From: Leucothrix mucor DSM 2157
GTDB taxonomy: Bacteria; Pseudomonadota; Gammaproteobacteria; Thiotrichales; Thiotrichaceae
Assembly (NCBI RefSeq): GCF_000419525.1
Contig: NZ_ATTE01000001.1
Location: 3,904,501-3,968,500 of the forward strand
Length of the DNA: 64,000 nt
Direction of reading: 5' to 3'
In this document: piece by piece, positions 15,411 to 26,192 of the stretch
Layout: each line of letters begins with the position of its first letter
Position numbering within the stretch: the stretch's first letter is position 1
Position numbers and translations under genes: made by a program
The notes under the pieces: model-generated
Told to the model about the DNA's origin: nothing
Database searches by the model: none
Seen by the model: only the letters and a program-made list of their open reading frames with translations

Positions 15411-16163
15411 ATGACGATTGCTATTTTAAGCGCGATGGCGGAAGAAAACGCCTCACTAATGGCACATATGACTGATGTGCAAATTACTGAAGCCGGCCAG
15501 CGCACCTATTATCAGGGGCAGTTATGGGGCCAATCGGTCGTCGTCGTATTTTCGCATTGGGGCAAAGTGGCTGCGGCCAGTACAGTGACCTATCTAATCA
15601 GCTGCTTGGGCGTGGATGAAGTGATCTTCACCGGTGTAGCCGGTGGCATGGATCGCAGGCTAAAAGTCGGCGATATTGTGGTGGCGGATAAGCTCTATCA
15701 ACACGACATGGATGTGCGCCCGATTTTGCCACGCCATGAAATCCCGCTATTAGGCAAAGCGGCGATGGATAGTGATGATGCGCGGCGTCCGGCTCTGCTG
15801 CAGGCGGCTCAGGATTTTGTAAATCAGGATCTAAACAAATTACTCTCACCAGAGCTTATTGATGAATTCAATCTACGCCACCCCGATGTCATCACGGCGG
15901 ATATTGCCAGTGGCGATCAGTTTATTTCCAGCAATGAAGCGGTGCAGGATTTACGGGAGCGCTTGCCCAGCGTGGCTTGCGTAGAAATGGAAGGCGCTGC
16001 AGTGGCTCAAGTGTGTTCAGAGTTTGGCATTCCATTTTCAGTGGTACGAACCATTTCAGACTCAGCTGATCACTCCGCACACGTTGATTTCCCCAAATTT
16101 ATACAAGAAGTGGCACAAGTTTACTCCTTGGGAATAGTGCGTAATTTATTATCAAAAATGTAG
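15411..16163 (+). CDS. mtnN: 5'-methylthioadenosine/S-adenosylhomocysteine nucleosidase
   Basis: A 250-residue purine-nucleoside-phosphorylase-fold hydrolase. It cleaves adenine from MTA, SAH or 5'-deoxyadenosine and so recycles by-products of SAM use, including polyamine synthesis. The N-terminal IAILSAMAEE, the GVAGG motif, the catalytic segment CVEMEGAAVAQV and RTISDSAD are all family hallmarks. AAGGAGCATGCCCG precedes the ATG. It is about 20 residues longer than E. coli MtnN because of an insertion around residues 105-145. It is a single gene that converges on the RpiR regulator. Confidence 0.92.
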   Translation: MTIAILSAMAEENASLMAHMTDVQITEAGQRTYYQGQLWGQSVVVVFSHWGKVAAASTVTYLISCLGVDEVIFTGVAGGMDRRLKVGDIVVADKLYQHDMDVRPILPRHEIPLLGKAAMDSDDARRPALLQAAQDFVNQDLNKLLSPELIDEFNLRHPDVITADIASGDQFISSNEAVQDLRERLPSVACVEMEGAAVAQVCSEFGIPFSVVRTISDSADHSAHVDFPKFIQEVAQVYSLGIVRNLLSKM

Positions 16164-16246: not shown

Positions 16247-17134
16247 TTAGCCACGATCTACCCGCTTTTTAAAGCGCTCAGTCAGGTCAAACATTCCCTC
16301 CAACTCCCGCATACGCTTGGAAGTCTGCGGCCACAGCTTCTCTTCCAGCGCCACAATCAACGCTTCAACAAAAAACATAATCGTCACGCCAGAATCCCAA
16401 CCAGAGCGCCCTTCAATCTTAATCGGCAGAATATGCGTGGCTTGCGCCGCAATTGGCGATAGCCACTGATCAGTAAACAAAATGATCTTCGCCCCACGCT
16501 CCGCTGCCAGTTGGCTTACGGTCAGCAAATCCGGCTCATAACGCCGCACATCAAACATCACCAATACATCATCCTGCTTAATTTTCAGCAAATGATGTGG
16601 CCACAGCGCAACCGAGGGTGGGAAGTTGTAAATATTTTCCCGCATGACCTCAAGGTGAGTATTCAGGTAGTGCGCAAAAGAAGTAGTAATGCGACCACCA
16701 ACAATATGTACCGCGTGGTCCTCAGTAACAAGCAATTCAATCACCTGATCAAATAGCTCATGGCTGATCTGATTGAGCGAGTGGCGCAGGTTAGTGGTCA
16801 CGGTATCGGCAACCGTGTTGAGCACGTGAGTACTCGGGGCTTCAGCCGCCCATTGATCATGCTTGGTAATTGGGTCAGAAAGCGTCTTTTGCAGCTCTTC
16901 TTTAAGCGCCTTCTGCAAGGTGGTAAAGCTGGTGTGGCCTAGCTTTTTCAGGGTGCGCATTACGGTTGGAGTAGAGACGCCGCTAGCGTCTGAAAGCTCA
17001 GTAATCGAGACCAACCCTGCCATCGGATAGTTGCCCAGCAAGTGGTTCGCCAAACGAATCTCCGCCGGTGTGAAATTTTTCATCTGCTGGCGGATGAGTT
17101 CGGCAATAGTCGAGGATTGCTCTTTTTTTGACAT
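16247..17134 (-). CDS. RpiR/MurR-family transcriptional regulator with SIS domain
   Basis: A 295-residue regulator with an N-terminal HTH_6 domain (residues 1-80; SITELSDASGVSTPTVMRTLKKLG) and a C-terminal SIS domain (about 125-265; HIVGGRITTSFAHYL, VLVMFDVRRYEPD). RpiR proteins sense phosphosugars or related small molecules. The gene is divergent from the TRAP-transporter operon with 206 bp between, and is almost certainly its local regulator. An AT-rich near-palindrome at 17202-17217 touches the -35 of the operon promoter and is the obvious operator candidate. Repression or activation cannot be told from sequence. Confidence 0.9.
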   Translation of the reverse strand: MSKKEQSSTIAELIRQQMKNFTPAEIRLANHLLGNYPMAGLVSITELSDASGVSTPTVMRTLKKLGHTSFTTLQKALKEELQKTLSDPITKHDQWAAEAPSTHVLNTVADTVTTNLRHSLNQISHELFDQVIELLVTEDHAVHIVGGRITTSFAHYLNTHLEVMRENIYNFPPSVALWPHHLLKIKQDDVLVMFDVRRYEPDLLTVSQLAAERGAKIILFTDQWLSPIAAQATHILPIKIEGRSGWDSGVTIMFFVEALIVALEEKLWPQTSKRMRELEGMFDLTERFKKRVDRG

Positions 17135-17201
17135 AAGTTCGGGCCTATTTTGGCGCTTGGTGTGATTACTTAATATGCTGATTTTTATGACTATTTCAAT
17201 T

Positions 17202-17245
17202 AAATATTAAAATATTTGACATAATATTTGTAAGCTGTGTATATT
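17202..17245 (+). promoter_or_regulatory. Sigma70 promoter of the TRAP operon with overlapping AT-rich palindrome
   Basis: TTGACA (17216-17221) and TATATT (17240-17245) are 18 bp apart, about 95 bp before the dctP ATG. The near-palindrome AAATATTAAAATATTT (17202-17217) overlaps the -35 and may be the RpiR-protein operator. The promoter call rests on sequence match only. Confidence 0.5.
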
Positions 17246-17340
17246 TTTACAGGACTTTGACGGAGAAATCAAAAATAAGAAAGCCGCTCAGTATTTGGAT
17301 ACGTTTTGTTGCTTGATGACCTCACCATTGGAGAATTAAC

Positions 17341-18390
17341 ATGAATAAACGCCAGTTCCTGAAGACCGCAGTTACCACCGGAGGTGCAGTCGCCGCTGCA
17401 GCGGTGGCCCCACACGTTCACGCCGCTTCCAAAACTAAAATCAAATGGCGCTTACAAACTTATGCTGGCCCTGCGCTGGCAGAACACGTTATCAAGCCAT
17501 CGATTGATGCATTCAACAAAGCCGCCAATGGCGAAATGGAAATCGAGCTGTACTATGCGGATCAGCTAGTGCCAACCGGTGAATTGTTCCGTGCCATGCA
17601 AAAAGGAACCATTGATGCGGTACAAAGTGATGATGATTCAATCGCTTCCCCCGTCGATATCTCCGTATTTGGGGGTTACTTCCCGTTCGCAACCCGTTAC
17701 AGCTTAGATATTCCCGTACTGTTCAACCAATACGGCCTGAATGAAATTTGGGAAGAAGCTTACAGCGAAGTCAAAGGTGTGACCTGGCTAGGCGCTGGTG
17801 CCTGGGACCCTTGCCACTTCGCCACTAAAGACCCCATTACCAGCCTGGCTGACCTCAAAGGCAAGCGCGTATTTACCTTCCCAACCGCGGGCCGTTTCCT
17901 GAAGCGTTTCGGCGTGGTACCCGTCACTTTGCCTTGGGAAGATATTGAAGTAGCTATGCAAACCGGTGAGCTTGATGGTATCGCATGGTCGGGTATTACC
18001 GAGGATTACACGGTCGGTTGGGCGGATGTCACCAAATACTTCCTGACTAATAATATTTCCGGCGCATGGTGTGGTTCCTACTTCGCCAATGAAGACGCTT
18101 GGGCTAAAGTGCCAGAGCATCTGAAAGTACTGTTTAAGCTGTGCATGGATAGCTCGCACTACTACCGTCAGCACTGGTACTGGGGTGGTGAAGCTAAGCT
18201 GCGTACCGAAGGCACTAAGCTGGAGCTGACGTCAATTCCCGATGCAGAGTGGGCAACGGTTGAAGCCGAAGCGCACAAGTTCTGGGATGAAATTGCCGAA
18301 GTAAGCCCACGCACCAAAAAGGTCGTGGAAATCTTCAAAGCATATAACGAGACCATGTCCAAAGCAGGACGTCCGTACCGTTATGGTTAA
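17341..18390 (+). CDS. dctP: TRAP transporter substrate-binding protein DctP
   Basis: This 349-residue periplasmic binding protein feeds a TRAP transporter. The export signal NKRQFLKTAVTTGGAVAAAAVAP resembles a twin-arginine signal with KR in place of RR; cleavage is probably at HVHA-AS near residue 28. The mature part opens IKWRLQTYAGPALAEH, as in the TakP-like branch of DctP. It has the central segment LADLKGKRVFTFPTAGRFLK and the conserved Arg region contacting organic acids. Here the downstream enzymes suggest an amino-alcohol or other nitrogen compound rather than a plain carboxylate. A hairpin follows the gene. It is the first gene of the 17.3-25.5 kb operon. Confidence 0.9.
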   Translation: MNKRQFLKTAVTTGGAVAAAAVAPHVHAASKTKIKWRLQTYAGPALAEHVIKPSIDAFNKAANGEMEIELYYADQLVPTGELFRAMQKGTIDAVQSDDDSIASPVDISVFGGYFPFATRYSLDIPVLFNQYGLNEIWEEAYSEVKGVTWLGAGAWDPCHFATKDPITSLADLKGKRVFTFPTAGRFLKRFGVVPVTLPWEDIEVAMQTGELDGIAWSGITEDYTVGWADVTKYFLTNNISGAWCGSYFANEDAWAKVPEHLKVLFKLCMDSSHYYRQHWYWGGEAKLRTEGTKLELTSIPDAEWATVEAEAHKFWDEIAEVSPRTKKVVEIFKAYNETMSKAGRPYRYG

Positions 18391-18412
18391 TCCGCTAGAC
18401 GTTTGACCTTAG

Positions 18413-18437
18413 CGCCTCCCTTGTTCTGAGGGAGGCG
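18413..18437 (+). terminator. Hairpin between dctP and dctQ (partial terminator/stabiliser)
   Basis: CGCCTCCCT (18413-18421) pairs with AGGGAGGCG (18429-18437) around a 7-nt loop, followed by ACTCTTTC. It stands right after the binding-protein gene, like the hairpin at 7314, and would favour excess binding protein. Confidence 0.6.
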
Positions 18438-18466
18438 ACTCTTTCAACAATTTCTGGGTTGTCACC

Positions 18467-19006
18467 GTGTATAACGCTATTCAGTCATACGTGCGTTTCA
18501 TCAGCAAATTCAATCGTGGCGTTGGGATTATTGCCATGTATCTGGTGCTGATGATGATGGGAATACTCCTATTTTCCTCGATCTCCAAAGGCCTTGGCTC
18601 ACCGCAATATTGGGTCATTGAAATGGCGCAGTTCACCATGGCAGCCTACTATTTGTTGGGTGGCGCTTACACCATGCAAATGGACTCGCATGTGCGCATG
18701 GATGTGTTCTACGGCACCTGGACGCCGAAGCGACAAGCCACCATCGACGCGATTACCGTATTGTGTCTGATTACCTATCTGGTGTTATTGCTGTATGGCG
18801 GAATCTCCAGCACCACCTACGCGCTTGAGTATGGCCAGAAGAACTACTCCTCTTGGGCACCTTATATGGCACCCATCAAAATCATTATGACGTTTGGAAT
18901 CTTTATGATGTTGCTGCAAGTGCTGGCAACTTTTTTCCAAAATGTCGCAGCCGCCAAAGGCATTCCCTTTGATATCAAGCAACACCCTGAGGATATTGTC
19001 GTATGA
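18467..19006 (+). CDS. dctQ: TRAP transporter small permease DctQ
   Basis: A 179-residue inner-membrane protein with four hydrophobic helices; IEMAQFTMAAYYLLGGAYTMQMDSHVRMDVFY is the conserved DctQ core (H, R, D near residue 80). The start is GTG 18467, the first usable codon after the intergenic hairpin; no strong ribosome site is seen. Its stop overlaps the dctM start by 4 bp. It pairs with DctM to form the sodium-driven uptake unit. Confidence 0.88.
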   Translation: MYNAIQSYVRFISKFNRGVGIIAMYLVLMMMGILLFSSISKGLGSPQYWVIEMAQFTMAAYYLLGGAYTMQMDSHVRMDVFYGTWTPKRQATIDAITVLCLITYLVLLLYGGISSTTYALEYGQKNYSSWAPYMAPIKIIMTFGIFMMLLQVLATFFQNVAAAKGIPFDIKQHPEDIVV

Positions 19007-20331
19007 GCCATGAAATGATTGCCATCATGATGTTTTCAATGCTCATGCTGATGCTATTAACCGGGCAGCGAGTATTTGGAGCCGTCGGCTTTGTCGCAGT
19101 GGTTGCCGGATTGTTTTTATGGGGCGATGGCGGCTCCGAAATGGCCTTTAACGCCAGTATCAAACTACTAAACTGGTATCCATTACTGACATTGCCATTG
19201 TTTGTCTTTATGGGCTATATGCTCTCAGAATCCGGTATCGCCAGCGATTTGTATCGAATGTTACATGTCTGGATGGGCTCGTTAAAAGGCGGCTTGGGAA
19301 TTGGAACCATTATCTTGATGGTGGCGATTTCAGCCATGAACGGGCTCAGCGTGGCGGGGATGGCGATTGGTACCAGTATCGCACTACCCGAAATGCTCAA
19401 ACGAGGTTATGACAAGCGCATGGTAACCGGCGTCATTCAAGCCGGTAGCTCGCTAGGAATCCTCGTACCACCCAGTATTGTACTCGTCCTCTATGGCATG
19501 ATCGCGCGCCAACCCGTCAGTCAGTTATGGCTAGCTGGCGTAGTTCCGGGGCTAATGCTGGCAACCATGTTTATCGGCTACATCGTGATTCGCTGTAAGT
19601 TACAGCCTGAGTTAGGTCCGGCTTTGCCTTTGGAAGAGCGCCAAGCCATTACGCGGCAGGAAAAAATCCGCTTATTGGGTGCGGGTGTGCTGCCATTGTT
19701 CATTATCTTCTCGGTAATTGGTTTGTTCCTGATGGGCTATACCAGCTTGGTTGAGTCCTCAGCCGTTGGTGCCTTAGTTGCCATGCTGGCCGCACTGGTT
19801 AAAGGCCGCATGAGCTTTAAAGTGCTACACACCACACTGCGTAAAACCTTAAGCATCAGTGGTATGTTCATGTGGATTATTATGGCGGCACTGTGTTTTG
19901 GTGCGGTATTTGATGGCTTGGGTGCCGTTAAAGCCATCGAAAGCTTATTCTTAGAAAAGTGGGGCCTCACGCCTTGGGAAGTGCTGCTACTGATGCAGCT
20001 GACCTACATCATTATGGGCATGTTCTTAGATGATACAGCCATGTTGGTTATCGTGGCCCCTCTGTATATCCCGCTAATTATTGCGTTGGACTTTAATCCG
20101 ATTTGGTACGGTGTGCTATACACTGTGACCTGTCAGATCGCTTATATGACACCGCCCTTTGGCTACAATCTGTTCTTGATGAAAGCCATGGCCCCCAAAG
20201 AAATTGGGTTGGTGGATATCTATAAGTCGATCATTCCCTTTGTCGCGATTATGCTCGTGGCTTTATTCATACTGATGTTGTTCCCGCAGCTGACATTGTG
20301 GTTGCCTGAGCTCGTCTACGGAAGTAGGTAG
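19003..20331 (+). CDS. dctM: TRAP transporter large permease DctM
   Basis: A 442-residue inner-membrane transporter of the DctM/ion-transporter superfamily with about 12 hydrophobic segments. Typical segments are LPLFVFMGYMLSESGIA, VAISAMNGLSVAGMAIGTSIALPEM, AGSSLGILVPPSIVLVLYG, GMFLDDTAMLVIVAPLYIPL and MTPPFGYNLFLMKA. ATG 19003 overlaps the dctQ stop (ATGA). It uses the sodium gradient to move the ligand delivered by DctP. Confidence 0.95.
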   Translation: MSHEMIAIMMFSMLMLMLLTGQRVFGAVGFVAVVAGLFLWGDGGSEMAFNASIKLLNWYPLLTLPLFVFMGYMLSESGIASDLYRMLHVWMGSLKGGLGIGTIILMVAISAMNGLSVAGMAIGTSIALPEMLKRGYDKRMVTGVIQAGSSLGILVPPSIVLVLYGMIARQPVSQLWLAGVVPGLMLATMFIGYIVIRCKLQPELGPALPLEERQAITRQEKIRLLGAGVLPLFIIFSVIGLFLMGYTSLVESSAVGALVAMLAALVKGRMSFKVLHTTLRKTLSISGMFMWIIMAALCFGAVFDGLGAVKAIESLFLEKWGLTPWEVLLLMQLTYIIMGMFLDDTAMLVIVAPLYIPLIIALDFNPIWYGVLYTVTCQIAYMTPPFGYNLFLMKAMAPKEIGLVDIYKSIIPFVAIMLVALFILMLFPQLTLWLPELVYGSR

Positions 20332-20338
20332 GTGCATC

Positions 20339-21115
20339 ATGGAACGGAGTGAACAAGTAGCCGCCTTGAGCGGTCTGGAACAGGCATCTGCGGTGGTTCA
20401 TAACCCGCAAGGTGCCTCTGAAATCATCTTGGTCTGCGAACATGCCAGCCATTATATTCCCGCCGTGTTTGGCAATCTGGGCTTGTCGGATGATGAGCGC
20501 CTAAGCCATATCGGCTGGGATCCCGGAGCGGCAGCCACCGCTAAAAAGCTGAGTAAGCTATTGGACGCACCACTGGTGCTCCAGCAATACTCGCGCTTAT
20601 TGTATGACTGTAATCGACCACCAGAAGTGTTGAGTGCCATCCCGCAGCGCAGTGAATACACGGAAATTCCGGGAAATATTGAGCTTAGCGCTGAGGAACG
20701 TGACTATCGGATTAAGCAGATTTATGATCCGTTTCATGCAGCAATAGATGGCTTAATTCGCGAGCACGTTGCGGCCGATAAACCCTATATCATCGTCACC
20801 ATTCACAGCTTTACGCCGGTGTTTTTAGGCGCACAGCGGGCGGTTGAGTTAGGGGTAATCTATGCGCCAGAAAATCGCTTTGCCGAACGCTTTTATCAGC
20901 GCAGTAAAGCCATGTCTCCACGAGATATTCGAAGTAATGAACCCTATGGCCCGTCCGATCCGGTATTACACACGATCGGGCGACACAGCTCACCAAAGCA
21001 TGGCGCGGTGATGCTGGAAATTCGTAACGACCTGCTCAGCAGCGATGCAGATCAGCAATACTGGGCTGGCTTTATCGCCAAAGCCTTGCACGCGACAATT
21101 AACGAGGAAAAATAA
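20339..21115 (+). CDS. N-formylglutamate amidohydrolase-family hydrolase
   Basis: A 258-residue member of the N-formylglutamate amidohydrolase (HutG-type) family. ILVCEHASHYIP, the HIGWDPGA segment, YSRLLYDCNRPPE, TIHSFTPVF and AVMLEIRNDLL are family blocks with likely metal-binding Glu/His. No other histidine-degradation gene is present. The gene starts 7 bp after dctM and touches the glutamine-synthetase-like gene by one base. In this setting it is a good candidate to hydrolyse a gamma-glutamyl amide, or another N-acyl-glutamate, at the end of the pathway (inference). Substrate is not provable here. Confidence 0.85.
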   Translation: MERSEQVAALSGLEQASAVVHNPQGASEIILVCEHASHYIPAVFGNLGLSDDERLSHIGWDPGAAATAKKLSKLLDAPLVLQQYSRLLYDCNRPPEVLSAIPQRSEYTEIPGNIELSAEERDYRIKQIYDPFHAAIDGLIREHVAADKPYIIVTIHSFTPVFLGAQRAVELGVIYAPENRFAERFYQRSKAMSPRDIRSNEPYGPSDPVLHTIGRHSSPKHGAVMLEIRNDLLSSDADQQYWAGFIAKALHATINEEK

Positions 21116-22485
21116 TGACACCTGCCCTAACCCTGGATCAATTAAAAAACGAATTTGCAGAAGGCCTGATTGATACCGTGCTGGTGTGTCAGGTTGATAT
21201 GCAGGGACGCCTGATGGGTAAGCGTTTTCATGCCGACTTCTTCCTGAAAAGTGGCTACGAGGAAACCCATTCCTGTAACTATTTGCTGGCAACTGACTTG
21301 GAAATGGAAACGGTTGAAGGCTACAAAGCCACCAGCTGGGATGCAGGCTACGGCGATTACATCATGAAGCCGGATTTAAGTACGTTGCGTCGCGTTCCTT
21401 GGTTGGAAGGCACAGCGATGGTGCTCTGCGATATTCTGGATCATCACACGCACAAGGAAGTCCCTCATTCGCCCCGTGCCATTTTGAAAAAGCAGATCGC
21501 TAGGCTTGAAGAGATGGGCATGCGCCCGATGATGGCAACTGAGCTGGAGTTTTTCCTGTTTGATCAGACCTTTGAAAGCGCCCAGGAGTCCGGCTACCGC
21601 AATATGAAGCTGGCCAGCGCTTACAATGAGGATTACCACATCTTCCAGACCACCAAGGAAGAAGATACCATTCGCGCTATGCGTAATGGCTTGTACGGTG
21701 CGGGCATCGAGGTGGAGTGTTCCAAAGGTGAAGCCTCAGCCGGTCAGGAAGAGATCAATGTAAAATACAATGATGCGCTGACGACGGCTGATCATCACAC
21801 CATCGTTAAAAATGGCTGTAAGGAAATTGCTTGGGCCAAAGGTAAGTCCATTACCTTTATGGCGAAATGGAATTATTCTGCGGCGGGTAGCTCTTCCCAT
21901 GTGCATCAGTCGCTGTGGGATTTGGAAGGCAAAACCCCACTATTCTTTGATGAAAATGCCGAATATGGCATGTCGGATCTGATGAAACATTACATGGCAG
22001 GCCTGCTGGAATATGCCGATGAAGCCACCTGTTTCTTAGCGCCTTACATTAACTCCTATAAACGTTTCCAGTCTGGTACCTTTGCACCCACTAAAGCGGT
22101 TTGGAGCCCTGATAATCGCACGGCGGCCTATCGCATGTGTGGCGAAAACAGCAAAGCAGTACGCGTGGAGTGTCGGGTTGGCGGGGCCGATTTAAACCCC
22201 TATCTGGCACTGGCAGCACAACTGGCTTGCGGGATTGCGGGAATTAATCAGAAACTGGAGCTGGCACCGGCTTATACTGGTGATGCTTATCTGGATGACT
22301 CTTTGAAAATCATCCCGAGCACCCTGCGTGACGCCACTGAGATGCTGGATAAATCGTCGATGTTCCGCGCCGCCTTTGGTGATGATGTGATTAACCATTA
22401 TGTCCATGCTGCCCGTTGGGAGCAGACTGAATATGATCGCCGCGTAACCGACTGGGAAGTCGCCCGTGGCTTTGAGCGAGCTTAA
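21115..22485 (+). CDS. Glutamine synthetase-family gamma-glutamyl-amine ligase
   Basis: A 456-residue protein of the GlnA/PuuA superfamily, which joins glutamate's gamma-carboxyl to ammonia or an amine using ATP. Visible catalytic parts are the metal-binding ATELEFF, GQEEINV and SSHVHQSL, and the Arg segments NSYKRFQSGTFAP, DNRTAAYR and VECRVGGADLNPYLALA. The NLYDLPPE-type adenylylation loop of housekeeping GlnA is absent. Context (uptake genes, alcohol and aldehyde dehydrogenases, an amidohydrolase) points to a gamma-glutamyl-X synthetase such as PuuA, IpuC or ethanolamide synthetases, not nitrogen assimilation. Confidence 0.85.
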   Translation: MTPALTLDQLKNEFAEGLIDTVLVCQVDMQGRLMGKRFHADFFLKSGYEETHSCNYLLATDLEMETVEGYKATSWDAGYGDYIMKPDLSTLRRVPWLEGTAMVLCDILDHHTHKEVPHSPRAILKKQIARLEEMGMRPMMATELEFFLFDQTFESAQESGYRNMKLASAYNEDYHIFQTTKEEDTIRAMRNGLYGAGIEVECSKGEASAGQEEINVKYNDALTTADHHTIVKNGCKEIAWAKGKSITFMAKWNYSAAGSSSHVHQSLWDLEGKTPLFFDENAEYGMSDLMKHYMAGLLEYADEATCFLAPYINSYKRFQSGTFAPTKAVWSPDNRTAAYRMCGENSKAVRVECRVGGADLNPYLALAAQLACGIAGINQKLELAPAYTGDAYLDDSLKIIPSTLRDATEMLDKSSMFRAAFGDDVINHYVHAARWEQTEYDRRVTDWEVARGFERA

Positions 22486-22489
22486 ACCC

Positions 22490-23881
22490 ATGAAAATGAT
22501 TCAATGTGTGTCGCCGGTAGATGGCAGTGTGTATGCGGAACGTCCGGTTGCTAGTGAGCAGGCCATTCGCGAAGCCTTTGCCGAAAGCCGCGCGGTACAG
22601 CAGGAATGGAAACTACTGAGTATTGCCGAGCGTGCTGTCTATTGTAATGCCGCAGTGGATGCGCTGATCGCCATGAAACCACGCATTGTGGAAGAGCTGG
22701 CATGGCAGATGGGGCGTCCGGTTGCATTTGGCGCAGGCGAAGTCGGCGGGCTGGAAGAGCGGGCGCGTTATATGATTTCGATTGCGGAATCCTCTCTGGC
22801 CGACCTTGATCCTGGTGAAAAGCCCGGCTTTGTGCGACGCGTTTCACGTGAAGCATTGGGCGTGGTACTGACCATTGCGCCCTGGAATTTCCCGTATATG
22901 ACGGCGGTTAACTCCATTATTCCAGCGTTAATGGCAGGTAACACCTTAGTCCTAAAGCATGCGGCGCATACCTTGCTGGTTGCCGAGCGCTTTCAGGAAG
23001 CGTTTGATCAAGCCGGTGTACCAAAAGGCGTATTCCAACATTTAGTCATGGATCATGAGCAAACCGCTGAGGTGATTAGTGGCGGTATGGTCGATATGGT
23101 GTGCTTCACTGGCTCTGTTGGCGGTGGTAAAGCCATGGAAGCAGCTGCTTCTGGTGCCTTTATTCCGGTTGGTTTGGAGTTGGGCGGTAAAGACCCTGCT
23201 TATGTTCGTGCTGACTGTAATCTGCAACATGCCATTGAAAATCTGGCGGATGGAGCATTCTTTAACAGCGGCCAATCCTGTTGTGCGATTGAGCGAATTT
23301 ATGTGCATGAAAGCATCCACGATGAGTTTGTAGCGGGTTTAGCAGCCGTTGCCAGCACCTATGTGCTTGGAAACCCTTTAGAGTCTGAAACAACGCTGGG
23401 GCCAATGATTAAACCCGCTGCAGCAGACTTTGTTCGTGGGCAAATTAAAGAGGCACTCGCCGCTGGCGCAACAGCGCATGTGGATACCAGCGCCTTTGAG
23501 CGTGAGCAGGAAGGTTCTGCCTATATGGCTCCGCAAGTATTGAGCGATGTGACGCACTCTATGTCCGTAATGCGCGATGAAAGCTTTGGTCCAGTTGTTG
23601 GCGTGATGAAGGTCAGCAGCGATGAAGAGGCCATTACGCTCATGAATGATTCAGAGTTTGGCTTAACTGCGGCAATTTGGACGGAAGATGTTGCCGCCGC
23701 AGAGCGTATCGGCGCACAATTAGACACCGGTACGGTGTTTATGAATCGCTGTGACTATCTTGACCCTGCGCTGGCATGGACTGGCGTTAAAAACACCGGT
23801 CGTGGATGTACGCTTTCAGCGATGGGCTATGAATCACTCACGCGGCCTAAGAGCTATCATTTCAGAACGCAAACCAGCTAA
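22490..23881 (+). CDS. NAD(P)-dependent aldehyde dehydrogenase
   Basis: A 463-residue ALDH-superfamily enzyme that oxidises an aldehyde to the acid. IAPWNFPY, FTGSVGGG (cofactor loop), LELGGKDPAYV (general-base Glu) and NSGQSCCAIERIYV (catalytic Cys) are intact, and the NRCDYLDPALAW segment resembles succinate-semialdehyde/gamma-glutamyl-aldehyde enzymes. ATG 22490 begins 4 bp after the ligase stop; a GTG at 22466 would overlap the ligase gene and is less likely. In the proposed route it oxidises a gamma-glutamyl-amino-aldehyde formed by the next enzyme. Confidence 0.9.
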   Translation: MKMIQCVSPVDGSVYAERPVASEQAIREAFAESRAVQQEWKLLSIAERAVYCNAAVDALIAMKPRIVEELAWQMGRPVAFGAGEVGGLEERARYMISIAESSLADLDPGEKPGFVRRVSREALGVVLTIAPWNFPYMTAVNSIIPALMAGNTLVLKHAAHTLLVAERFQEAFDQAGVPKGVFQHLVMDHEQTAEVISGGMVDMVCFTGSVGGGKAMEAAASGAFIPVGLELGGKDPAYVRADCNLQHAIENLADGAFFNSGQSCCAIERIYVHESIHDEFVAGLAAVASTYVLGNPLESETTLGPMIKPAAADFVRGQIKEALAAGATAHVDTSAFEREQEGSAYMAPQVLSDVTHSMSVMRDESFGPVVGVMKVSSDEEAITLMNDSEFGLTAAIWTEDVAAAERIGAQLDTGTVFMNRCDYLDPALAWTGVKNTGRGCTLSAMGYESLTRPKSYHFRTQTS

Positions 23882-23914
23882 TTTTTATTACATTATTGAC
23901 CAAAGGAAACCCTG

Positions 23915-25531
23915 ATGACCGCGTATGACTACATTGTGATTGGTGCCGGTTCGGCTGGCTGCGTAGTCGCAAACCGTTTAAGTGCCGACCCTAAAGTCTC
24001 GGTGTGCCTGATTGAAGCCGGTGGCCCAAATCAGAACCCGTGGGTGTCGGTGCCAGCGGGTGCCTTTGTGCTCTATGGCAATAAAAAATACGACTATACC
24101 TATCAGGGTGCGCCACAAAAGCATTTGGCCAATCGGGTGATTACAGTCAACCGTGGCAAAGGGCTTGGCGGCTCCAGTGCGATTAACAGCATGGTGTATA
24201 TCCGTGGAAACCGTAAAGATTATGACACGTGGGAAGCTTTAGGCTGTCGCGGTTGGTCGTATGATGATGTGTTGCCTATTTTCAAAAAGCTGGAAAACAA
24301 TCAGGTCGATCAATCATCGGAGTTTCATGGTTTCGAGGGTGAGTTAAGCGTTGTTCAGCCACAGGAAACCAATGAAGTTGGTCATATGTTTGTGGCAGCT
24401 GGTAAGCATGCCGGATTACCAAAAAATGATGATTTTAATGCCGAATCGCAGCTGGGTCTTGGCGTATACAATGTTAAGCAGCAACGCGGCGAGCGGGTGA
24501 GTAGCTATACGGCGTTTATCAAGCCAGTGCTTAAACAGCGCCCGAACCTGACTGTATTGACGCAAACCGAAGTGCTCTCGCTTAATATCGAAGGCGATCG
24601 GGTAGTCAGTGTCAATATCGAGCAGCAAGGTCAGGCATCCGTGCTGACCTGTAATAAAGAAGTAGTCCTAAGTGCCGGTGTGATTGCCTCGCCACGTATT
24701 TTGCTGGCTTCCGGCATTGGTAATAAGTCTGAGCTTGAAGCCTTGGGCATTGAATGCAAACACGATGTGCCGGGCGTTGGTGAAAACCTGCAAGATCATA
24801 TCGACAGCATGGTTACCGTGCGCTCCAGCAGTGCCAAATCCATTGGTGTATCGCTGCGAACTCTACTACCTCATGTGCTCCCTGCCCCATTTAAATATTG
24901 GCTACAGCGCAAAGGCTGGTGGACGACTAACTACGTTGAAGTGGGCGGCTTTGCAAAAACCAAATTCGCCGAAGCCACGGGCGATGACCCGGATATTCAA
25001 TTCCATTTTACGCCCTTATTCCGCAGTCATCGTGGCCGCAAGTTTGAGTTTGGGCATGGCTATTCCTTATTCACCTGTGTGCTGCGCCCCAATAGTACTG
25101 GCTCGGTAAAAATGGTGAATGATGGCATGCATCGCAATATGCTGATCGATCACAACTTCTTTGCCGATGAGCAAGATCGCAAAGTGCTGGTTGAGGCGGT
25201 TAAAAAAGCCCGTGAAGTACTAGCCTCGCCAGTGTTTGATGAGATCCGTGGCGAAGAAATGGCACCCGGCAAACACATTCAAACCGATGAGCAGATTTTG
25301 CAGTACCTGAGAGAGACGGCTTCGACGGTTTATCATCCGGTTGGTACCTGCAAAATGGGTGTGGATGAGATGGCGGTGGTCAGTCCAGCTGATCTGAAAG
25401 TCCGTGGTATGCAGAACCTGCGAGTCATTGATGCGTCGACTATGCCCAAGCTGATTAGCGGCAATACCTCCGCACCGTCTATGATGATTGGTGACAAGGG
25501 TGCGTCGATGATCTTAGCGGATCAGGCGTAG
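23915..25531 (+). CDS. GMC-family FAD alcohol dehydrogenase (choline dehydrogenase-like)
   Basis: A 538-residue flavoprotein of the glucose-methanol-choline oxidoreductase family. The FAD-binding DYIVIGAGSAGCVVANRLS opens the protein. GKGLGGSSAINSMVYIRG is GMC signature 1 and LSAGVIASPRILLASGIG is signature 2. The C-terminal active-site His is in STVYHPVGTCKMG, followed by LRVIDASTMPKLISGNTSAPS. It resembles choline and other alcohol dehydrogenases. In this operon it probably oxidises the hydroxyl of a glutamylated amino-alcohol to the aldehyde. AAGGAAACCCTG precedes the ATG. It is the last gene of the cluster. Confidence 0.9.
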   Translation: MTAYDYIVIGAGSAGCVVANRLSADPKVSVCLIEAGGPNQNPWVSVPAGAFVLYGNKKYDYTYQGAPQKHLANRVITVNRGKGLGGSSAINSMVYIRGNRKDYDTWEALGCRGWSYDDVLPIFKKLENNQVDQSSEFHGFEGELSVVQPQETNEVGHMFVAAGKHAGLPKNDDFNAESQLGLGVYNVKQQRGERVSSYTAFIKPVLKQRPNLTVLTQTEVLSLNIEGDRVVSVNIEQQGQASVLTCNKEVVLSAGVIASPRILLASGIGNKSELEALGIECKHDVPGVGENLQDHIDSMVTVRSSSAKSIGVSLRTLLPHVLPAPFKYWLQRKGWWTTNYVEVGGFAKTKFAEATGDDPDIQFHFTPLFRSHRGRKFEFGHGYSLFTCVLRPNSTGSVKMVNDGMHRNMLIDHNFFADEQDRKVLVEAVKKAREVLASPVFDEIRGEEMAPGKHIQTDEQILQYLRETASTVYHPVGTCKMGVDEMAVVSPADLKVRGMQNLRVIDASTMPKLISGNTSAPSMMIGDKGASMILADQA

Positions 25532-25675: not shown

Positions 25676-25766
25676 ATCGCTTTTACCGATGGTATCTAAT
25701 TGGTAGGTATCCTGATATTAGATGAAAATGGTCACTCTGTCCTATTAACGCTTGGAGTTGTTAATT

Positions 25767-26192
25767 ATGAAAAACAGAGAACGCGTTTTTCATGCCGTGT
25801 CATTTGAAATTATATTGCTGGCTATTTTTATTCCCATGTCAGCCTTGGTCACGCAAAAACCGTCGGGTGATTTAGCCATTGTTGGCGTCTCGCTAAGCCT
25901 GTTGGCCGTTGCTTGGAACTATGTCTACAACATTGGCTTCGACAAACTGTTTGGTGCAGAACGCATTCAGCGGGGCATGAAGTTGCGGGTGTTGCATGCG
26001 GTATGCTTTGAAGCGGGAATGGTGGTGCTGGGTGTGCCATTAATTGCCTGGATGCTGCAAATCAGTTTGCTGGCGGCAATTATTCTGGAAGCGGGCTTTT
26101 TGGTGTTTATTCTGATCTATACCCTGCTGTTTAATTGGCTGTATGACCATTACCAACCTTATAAAAACTGGTTTGGCGAGCAGAAAGCCTAA
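25767..26192 (+). CDS. PACE-family (AceI-like) multidrug efflux protein
   Basis: A 141-residue inner-membrane protein with four transmembrane helices in two BTP repeats. Both repeats have the PACE motif RxxHxxxFE (RVFHAVSFE and RVLHAVCFE). The loop motifs WNYVYNIGFDKLF and YTLLFNWLYD are also present. The first Glu (residue 14) corresponds to the proton-coupling Glu15 of AceI. Members export biguanides such as chlorhexidine and some short diamines; the natural substrate here is unknown. GGAG lies 10 bp before ATG 25767. The stop overlaps the convergent MOSC gene by 4 bp. Confidence 0.93.
   Translation: MKNRERVFHAVSFEIILLAIFIPMSALVTQKPSGDLAIVGVSLSLLAVAWNYVYNIGFDKLFGAERIQRGMKLRVLHAVCFEAGMVVLGVPLIAWMLQISLLAAIILEAGFLVFILIYTLLFNWLYDHYQPYKNWFGEQKA

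Follow-up and report, generated by a model that had tools for sequence, protein, structure and literature searches.

Introduction

Ethanolamine is a building block of membrane lipids. The EutBC route deaminates it to acetaldehyde and involves no glutamylation. By the accessible portion of PMC6529630, the GlnA4 pathway of Streptomyces coelicolor uses a glutamine synthetase (GS)-like ligase that makes gamma-glutamylethanolamide. An operon of Phaeobacter sp. MED193, published in 2023, holds an RpiR regulator, GGAH (gamma-glutamylglycine amidohydrolase), EtoVWX (a TRAP transporter), ETAGA (ethanolamine gamma-glutamylase), GAADDH (gamma-glutamylacetaldehyde-amide dehydrogenase) and GETADH (gamma-glutamylethanolamide dehydrogenase), as given in the accessible part of PMC10132767. 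According to the same part, five of the operon proteins were raised on phosphorylethanolamine (its Table 2) and EtoX bound ethanolamine with a Kd of 7.9 uM; the catabolic scheme is titled 'Predicted' (legend to its Fig. 5), and no assay of the ligase, the dehydrogenases or the amidohydrolase appears there. It also cites Vetting et al. 2015 for the route in C. salexigens and A. tumefaciens. The available parts of three further papers state that Csal_0678 is without the carboxylate-binding arginine (PMC4646407), that structure 4uab is its ethanolamine complex, in which Glu220 holds both the amine and the hydroxyl (PMC12410723), and that Csal0679 is among the putative glutamine synthetases of C. 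salexigens (PMC5299690).

Here we describe an operon within a window of 64,000 nucleotides from Leucothrix mucor DSM 2157 (contig NZ_ATTE01000001.1, positions 3,904,501 to 3,968,500), an organism for which we found no published biochemistry. The operon very probably serves ethanolamine utilisation by gamma-glutamylation, converting ethanolamine to glycine. It is a member of an already described pathway with a modest enzyme swap.

Results

Organisation of the operon

The ORF list, together with NCBIfam and Pfam scans, gave seven same-strand genes, DctP-DctQ-DctM-FGase-GS-like-ALDH-GMC, with an RpiR gene divergent from them (Table 1); all the enzyme and importer genes that an earlier sequence-only reading had placed here are present. 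The starting point used in that reading, 17202, falls within the RpiR-DctP intergenic region; the RpiR gene lies outside the range given there. The ORF coordinates leave gaps of 76 nucleotides between DctP and DctQ, 7 between DctM and FGase and 33 between ALDH and GMC, and overlaps of 4 for DctQ/DctM, 1 for FGase/GS and 20 for GS/ALDH, the last with the called GTG start.

Table 1 Features of the Leucothrix mucor operon, in window coordinates
Feature	Position	Strand	Basis
RpiR-family regulator (HTH_6 + SIS)	16247-17134	-	Pfam HTH_6 and SIS above cut-off
RpiR-DctP intergenic region, presumed promoter/operator	17135-17340		sequence
DctP/EtoX-like solute-binding protein, predicted ethanolamine binder	17341-18390	+	PDB 4uab/4xf5 match
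DctQ small TRAP permease	18467-19006	+	PF04290
DctM large TRAP permease	19003-20331	+	PF06808; TIGR00786
FGase-family amidohydrolase, predicted gamma-glutamylglycine hydrolase	20339-21115	+	PF05013; PDB 2odf
GS-like ligase, predicted ethanolamine gamma-glutamylase	21115-22485	+	PDB 5dm3, 11zs matches
Aldehyde dehydrogenase (ALDH), predicted gamma-glutamyl-aldehyde oxidiser	22466-23881 (GTG start)	+	PF00171
GMC flavoprotein, predicted gamma-glutamylethanolamide dehydrogenase	23915-25531	+	PF00732 + PF05199

Related loci were sampled as the best 80 of 563 relatives by DctP similarity, some of which end at contig ends. The full layout of the window recurs in three of these 80, L060 and L066 (Neptunomonas, L066 being N. 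japonica) and L073 (Marinomonas). Since the same block stands in the same order in these genomes, the co-location of the genes is more than chance. Searches at E 1e-10 in 83 related loci, which included the 3-4 kb stubs L003-L005 left out of the 80 and of which several were short or ended by contig ends, gave no match for the flanking nucleosidase gene (15411-16163) or PACE efflux gene (25752-26192), and the genes between these two recur among the 83 loci; the unit therefore appears to close with the GMC gene. The PACE-family efflux gene follows the operon directly, in the same orientation.

The divergent RpiR gene is also found in L060, L066 and L073 at 70-74% identity, and RpiR is present in the annotated Ruegeria and Paracoccus operons; it is probably the local regulator of the operon. 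No 10-mer of the RpiR-DctP stretch recurred in the corresponding upstream DNA of L060, L066, L073 or L022, and an operator search within it returned only AT-rich imperfect palindromes and no conserved operator.

The importer is predicted to bind ethanolamine

Searched against the PDB, DctP matched Csal_0678 (4uab, 4xf5) at E=3.3e-168, with the next match at 1e-15. The predicted structure of DctP, modelled from a 49-row alignment (pLDDT 81.9; a single-sequence model of pLDDT 36.8 was left aside), retrieved the 4uab/4xf5 chains first, at 75% identity, and all others among the 50 rows listed were at most 20% identical. F178 aligns with the carboxylate-binding Arg of SmoM, which is thus replaced by Phe, and E221 aligns with Glu220 of Csal_0678, by alignment and on the assumption of an equal N-terminus. 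Both residues are kept in 87 of 87 locus rows, which overlap in places (L004/L090, L005/L092, L087/L111), and the model alignment has them in all of its 49 rows; L091 (same as L007), L094, L104, L110, L001 and L002 were left out of the comparison. Lacking the carboxylate Arg and having the platform Glu, DctP is predicted to be of the ethanolamine-binding type. Its likeness to Csal_0678 and the conservation of F178 and E221 make a plain carboxylate, which the sequence-only reading had named as the ligand that would speak against it, unlikely. DctM scored 259.5 bits against TIGR00786, just below the cut-off of 268.45.

Among the best 80 of 563 relatives, the same TRAP genes stand beside ethanolamine ammonia-lyase genes in two: they are followed by EutB/EutC in L084 (9926-15170, Desulfosediminicola, by Pfam) and in L072 (9199-13756, a Zoogloeaceae MAG, by tblastn). 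This pairing supports ethanolamine as the substrate and points to another role for this importer; no EutB match was found in the L. mucor genome.

A different short amino alcohol as the main substrate, for instance L-alaninol (2-amino-1-propanol), which the same steps would take to alanine, is improbable, though it is the best placed of the alternatives. The solute-binding protein from C. salexigens has two PDB entries, 4uab and 4xf5, and we take the latter to hold (S)-2-amino-1-propanol. The ligand of 4uab, however, is ethanolamine (PMC12410723, available part), the Phaeobacter EtoX bound ethanolamine, with no mention of alaninol as an analogue in the accessible part of PMC10132767, and the two loci with ammonia-lyase genes, out of the best 80 of 563, argue against alaninol. 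Ethanolamine, the first substrate named in the sequence-only reading, agrees with both the homology and the gene-context evidence.

The ligase and the hydrolase

The GS-like ligase scored 252 bits against the NCBIfam GlnA model (cut-off 429). Aligned with the genome's own GlnA, the ligase is without the stretch that carries the adenylylation tyrosine, in keeping with the initial description of a GS-family ligase lacking the adenylylation loop. The closest solved structures are 5dm3 (E=2.5e-194), which we take to be C. salexigens Csal_0679, and 11zs (E=2.8e-191). F323 of the ligase sits where the genome's own GlnA has Glu. In the ligase/GlnA alignment, from which row own_L095 was left out, this position is Phe in 32 of 32 rows of at least 55% identity (type A, window-like) and Trp in 40 of 43 lower-identity rows, own paralogues included (type B, about 32% identical). 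By its score and this residue, the enzyme is a GS-like protein other than GlnA and is without the ammonia-site Glu.

The FGase, the sole PF05013 match in the genome, scored 120.7 bits against that family and matched PDB entry 2odf, 'Atu2144', at E=3.5e-62; we presume this tag to denote Agrobacterium. A tblastn search with it against plasmids returned 142 records. Two further GS-like genes lie about 5 kb apart at G000:C1 4529382-4536362 (about 4.53 Mb) and are possibly a polyamine gamma-glutamylation cluster.

Distribution and variation of the operon

Within the best 80 of 563 relatives, a GS-like gene of either type was found in 66 loci, an iron-containing alcohol dehydrogenase (Fe-ADH) with ALDH in 57, FGase in 22, a class-I glutamine amidotransferase in 18 and GMC of at least 60% identity in four (L007, L060, L066 and L073), with one further GMC of 37% identity in L076; in nine loci the TRAP genes stood without any of the searched enzymes. 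L007 combines TRAP, GS-like and GMC genes, with GGDEF-EAL and solute-binding genes between GS and GMC and no FGase or ALDH match. Type B ligase, Fe-ADH and class-I glutamine amidotransferase stand beside the same TRAP genes in L025 (11306-16252, Thalassospira), L022 (12870-17661, a gammaproteobacterial MAG) and L048 (3185-7982, Veronia). In Kiloniella (L006, L012, L014, L015), the fetched stretch holds TRAP, FGase and GS-like genes together but gave no match for ALDH, Fe-ADH or GMC, and the oxidation enzymes may be located elsewhere.

The operon is patchily distributed, which, like the nine loci without the searched enzymes, counts against the ethanolamine reading. Counting L. mucor itself throughout, DctP was found in four of the 63 genomes of its family (E 1e-60) and in 15 of the 377 of its class (E 1e-130), and a close GMC in seven of the 47 family genomes at least 90% complete and in two of the 377 class genomes, the latter at an E limit that differs from that of the DctP search. 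In its own family, G001 and G042 have DctP with GMC about 7 kb away, the GMC of G001 (L090) lying on the opposite strand behind RpiR; G003 has DctP but no close GMC, and the other enzymes are absent from the fetched stretch (L092).

Close GMC genes are present, too, in stretches whose search gave no TRAP gene. L086 carries GS, GMC, FGase and ALDH, and L088 GS and GMC, both reaching a contig end; L089 has GMC alone. In L087 (5893-10933), an isochorismatase-family gene comes after the GS-like, ALDH and GMC genes, and the 18 kb fetched gave no match for TRAP or FGase; this cluster may be a further route for gamma-glutamyl amino alcohols that relies on another hydrolase. The L087 cluster lies downstream of PhoB/PhoR-like and BrkB-like genes.

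The aldehyde dehydrogenase and the proposed GMC alcohol step

The ALDH, whose Cys272 is presumed to be catalytic, had 45 NCBIfam matches and reached the cut-off in none of the 25 listed, BetB among them. In the GMC protein, His474 and Asn517 are presumably the active-site residues, and both are present in all 17 rows compared, among which are own paralogues and one pair that overlaps.

That the operon oxidises choline or methylated amines, with GMC as choline dehydrogenase, ALDH as betaine aldehyde dehydrogenase and GS and FGase incidental, is very improbable. Both proteins match the BetA and BetB models, GMC misses the cut-off of the PRK02106 'choline dehydrogenase' subfamily by 52 bits (553 against 605) and its closest solved structure carries the name choline dehydrogenase; yet the scores against BetA (491 bits, cut-off 732) and BetB (284 bits, cut-off 669) are far under these equivalog cut-offs, and on these scores a BetBA assignment was rejected. 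Choline, moreover, has no free amine to glutamylate. The joint presence of GS, ALDH and GMC even with no TRAP found (L087), and of Fe-ADH with ALDH in place of GMC in 57 of the best 80 of 563 relatives, likewise argue against choline. A polyamine pathway of the Puu type, which shares the ligase-oxidation-hydrolysis logic, is the least probable of all and was set aside, given that the ligase reaches 196 bits against a gamma-glutamylputrescine synthetase cut-off of 650, that the alcohol oxidoreductase is of the GMC family and that the GS-like pair at about 4.53 Mb could serve polyamines instead.

Within the ethanolamine reading, no Fe-ADH was found by Pfam in the operon, where the GMC gene takes its place, and one Fe-ADH match above cut-off lies elsewhere in the genome (about 4.265 Mb). 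As PMC10132767, in its accessible part, names the activity at this step and not an enzyme family, we regard GMC instead of an iron-containing ADH as a variant of the Eto-type operon. We infer that GMC oxidises gamma-glutamylethanolamide from its position and family, from its recurrence next to the GS-like ligase, and because other loci have an Fe-ADH in its stead. The genome holds nine GMC matches, so that having one is nothing unusual for it, and together with the Fe-ADH elsewhere this means that the alcohol step could be another enzyme's; the close GMC genes where no TRAP was found (L086-L089) imply that GMC may serve other alcohols. We lean towards the idea that this distinct GMC clade is a dedicated dehydrogenase of gamma-glutamylethanolamide, or of gamma-glutamyl amino alcohols, that replaces the NAD-linked iron ADH and would make the first oxidation irreversible and pass electrons to a quinone or oxygen. 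If so, the GMC family would gain a new activity, and the ethanolamine-to-glycine route a flavin-dependent form.

A search of the accessible literature found no paper on a GMC enzyme in an ethanolamine/GS/TRAP context and no assay of the GMC step, and 'gmc' is absent from the main text of PMC10132767 as far as accessible. With the 2015 C. salexigens/A. tumefaciens study outside the literature covered, we do not claim novelty for the exchange of the iron ADH for GMC.

Discussion

Proposed pathway

In the pathway that we propose, DctP would capture ethanolamine for import by DctQM; the GS-like ligase would use ATP to couple it to glutamate, forming gamma-glutamylethanolamide; the GMC flavoprotein would oxidise the alcohol to the aldehyde, and ALDH the gamma-glutamyl aldehyde to gamma-glutamylglycine; and the FGase-family hydrolase would release glycine and return glutamate, with RpiR probably regulating the operon. 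Our reading is based on the content and order of the genes, on their homology and residue conservation and on their surroundings in other genomes, and from these we infer every catalytic step, above all that of GMC. Ethanolamine binding and induction of operon proteins were shown by others in relatives. The sequence of gamma-glutamylation, oxidation from CH2OH through CHO to COOH and hydrolysis, already proposed from the sequence, agrees with homology and gene context and is well supported.

This is another bacterium that may recycle phosphatidylethanolamine headgroups. The route is modular: the ligase type, the alcohol dehydrogenase family and the hydrolase family vary between loci that have the ethanolamine TRAP importer in common. 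The GMC step offers an activity that can be assayed.

Comparison with known ethanolamine systems

The sequence-only reading had considered the pathway undescribed. This is ruled out by the Phaeobacter operon, since a route with TRAP importer, amidohydrolase and RpiR is already set out in the accessible part of PMC10132767 (2023). As far as that part goes, the Phaeobacter MED193 operon and the window have the same functions, a TRAP importer, an adjoining RpiR gene and the same proposed chemistry; the gene order differs, with RpiR, GGAH, EtoVWX and then the other enzymes in Phaeobacter, and DctPQM first, then FGase, in the window.

The S. coelicolor GlnA4 and the window ligase are alike in having Phe at the position of the reference-GS Glu (E327), whereas that cluster has a short-chain dehydrogenase and a glutamine amidotransferase where the window has GMC and FGase; it also has a transporter, putatively for ethanolamine, with no TRAP named in the accessible text of PMC6529630. 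The C. salexigens pair Csal_0678/Csal_0679 has its counterparts in DctP, 75% identical to Csal_0678, and, if 5dm3 is Csal_0679, in the ligase, whose closest solved structure this is. The EutBC ammonia-lyase route shares the substrate with the window operon and, in L084 and L072, stands beside the same TRAP genes.

Close DctP genes occur in 17 plasmid records, of which two were compared, from Ruegeria sp. B32 and Paracoccus denitrificans PD1222. Both operons follow the published Phaeobacter order and contain RpiR, FGase, TRAP, GS-family, ALDH and iron-containing ADH genes, and thus, as in the window, an FGase-family amidohydrolase, an ALDH and an RpiR gene stand in one cluster. At the alcohol step, the Ruegeria operon of Phaeobacter-type layout has an iron-containing ADH, whereas the window has a GMC flavoprotein. 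The set of GMC, FGase-like hydrolase and TRAP, which the sequence-only reading could match to no described pathway, has the functions of the Phaeobacter operon (PMC10132767, accessible part), and GMC at the alcohol step is the only departure of the window operon from the two Rhodobacterales operons.
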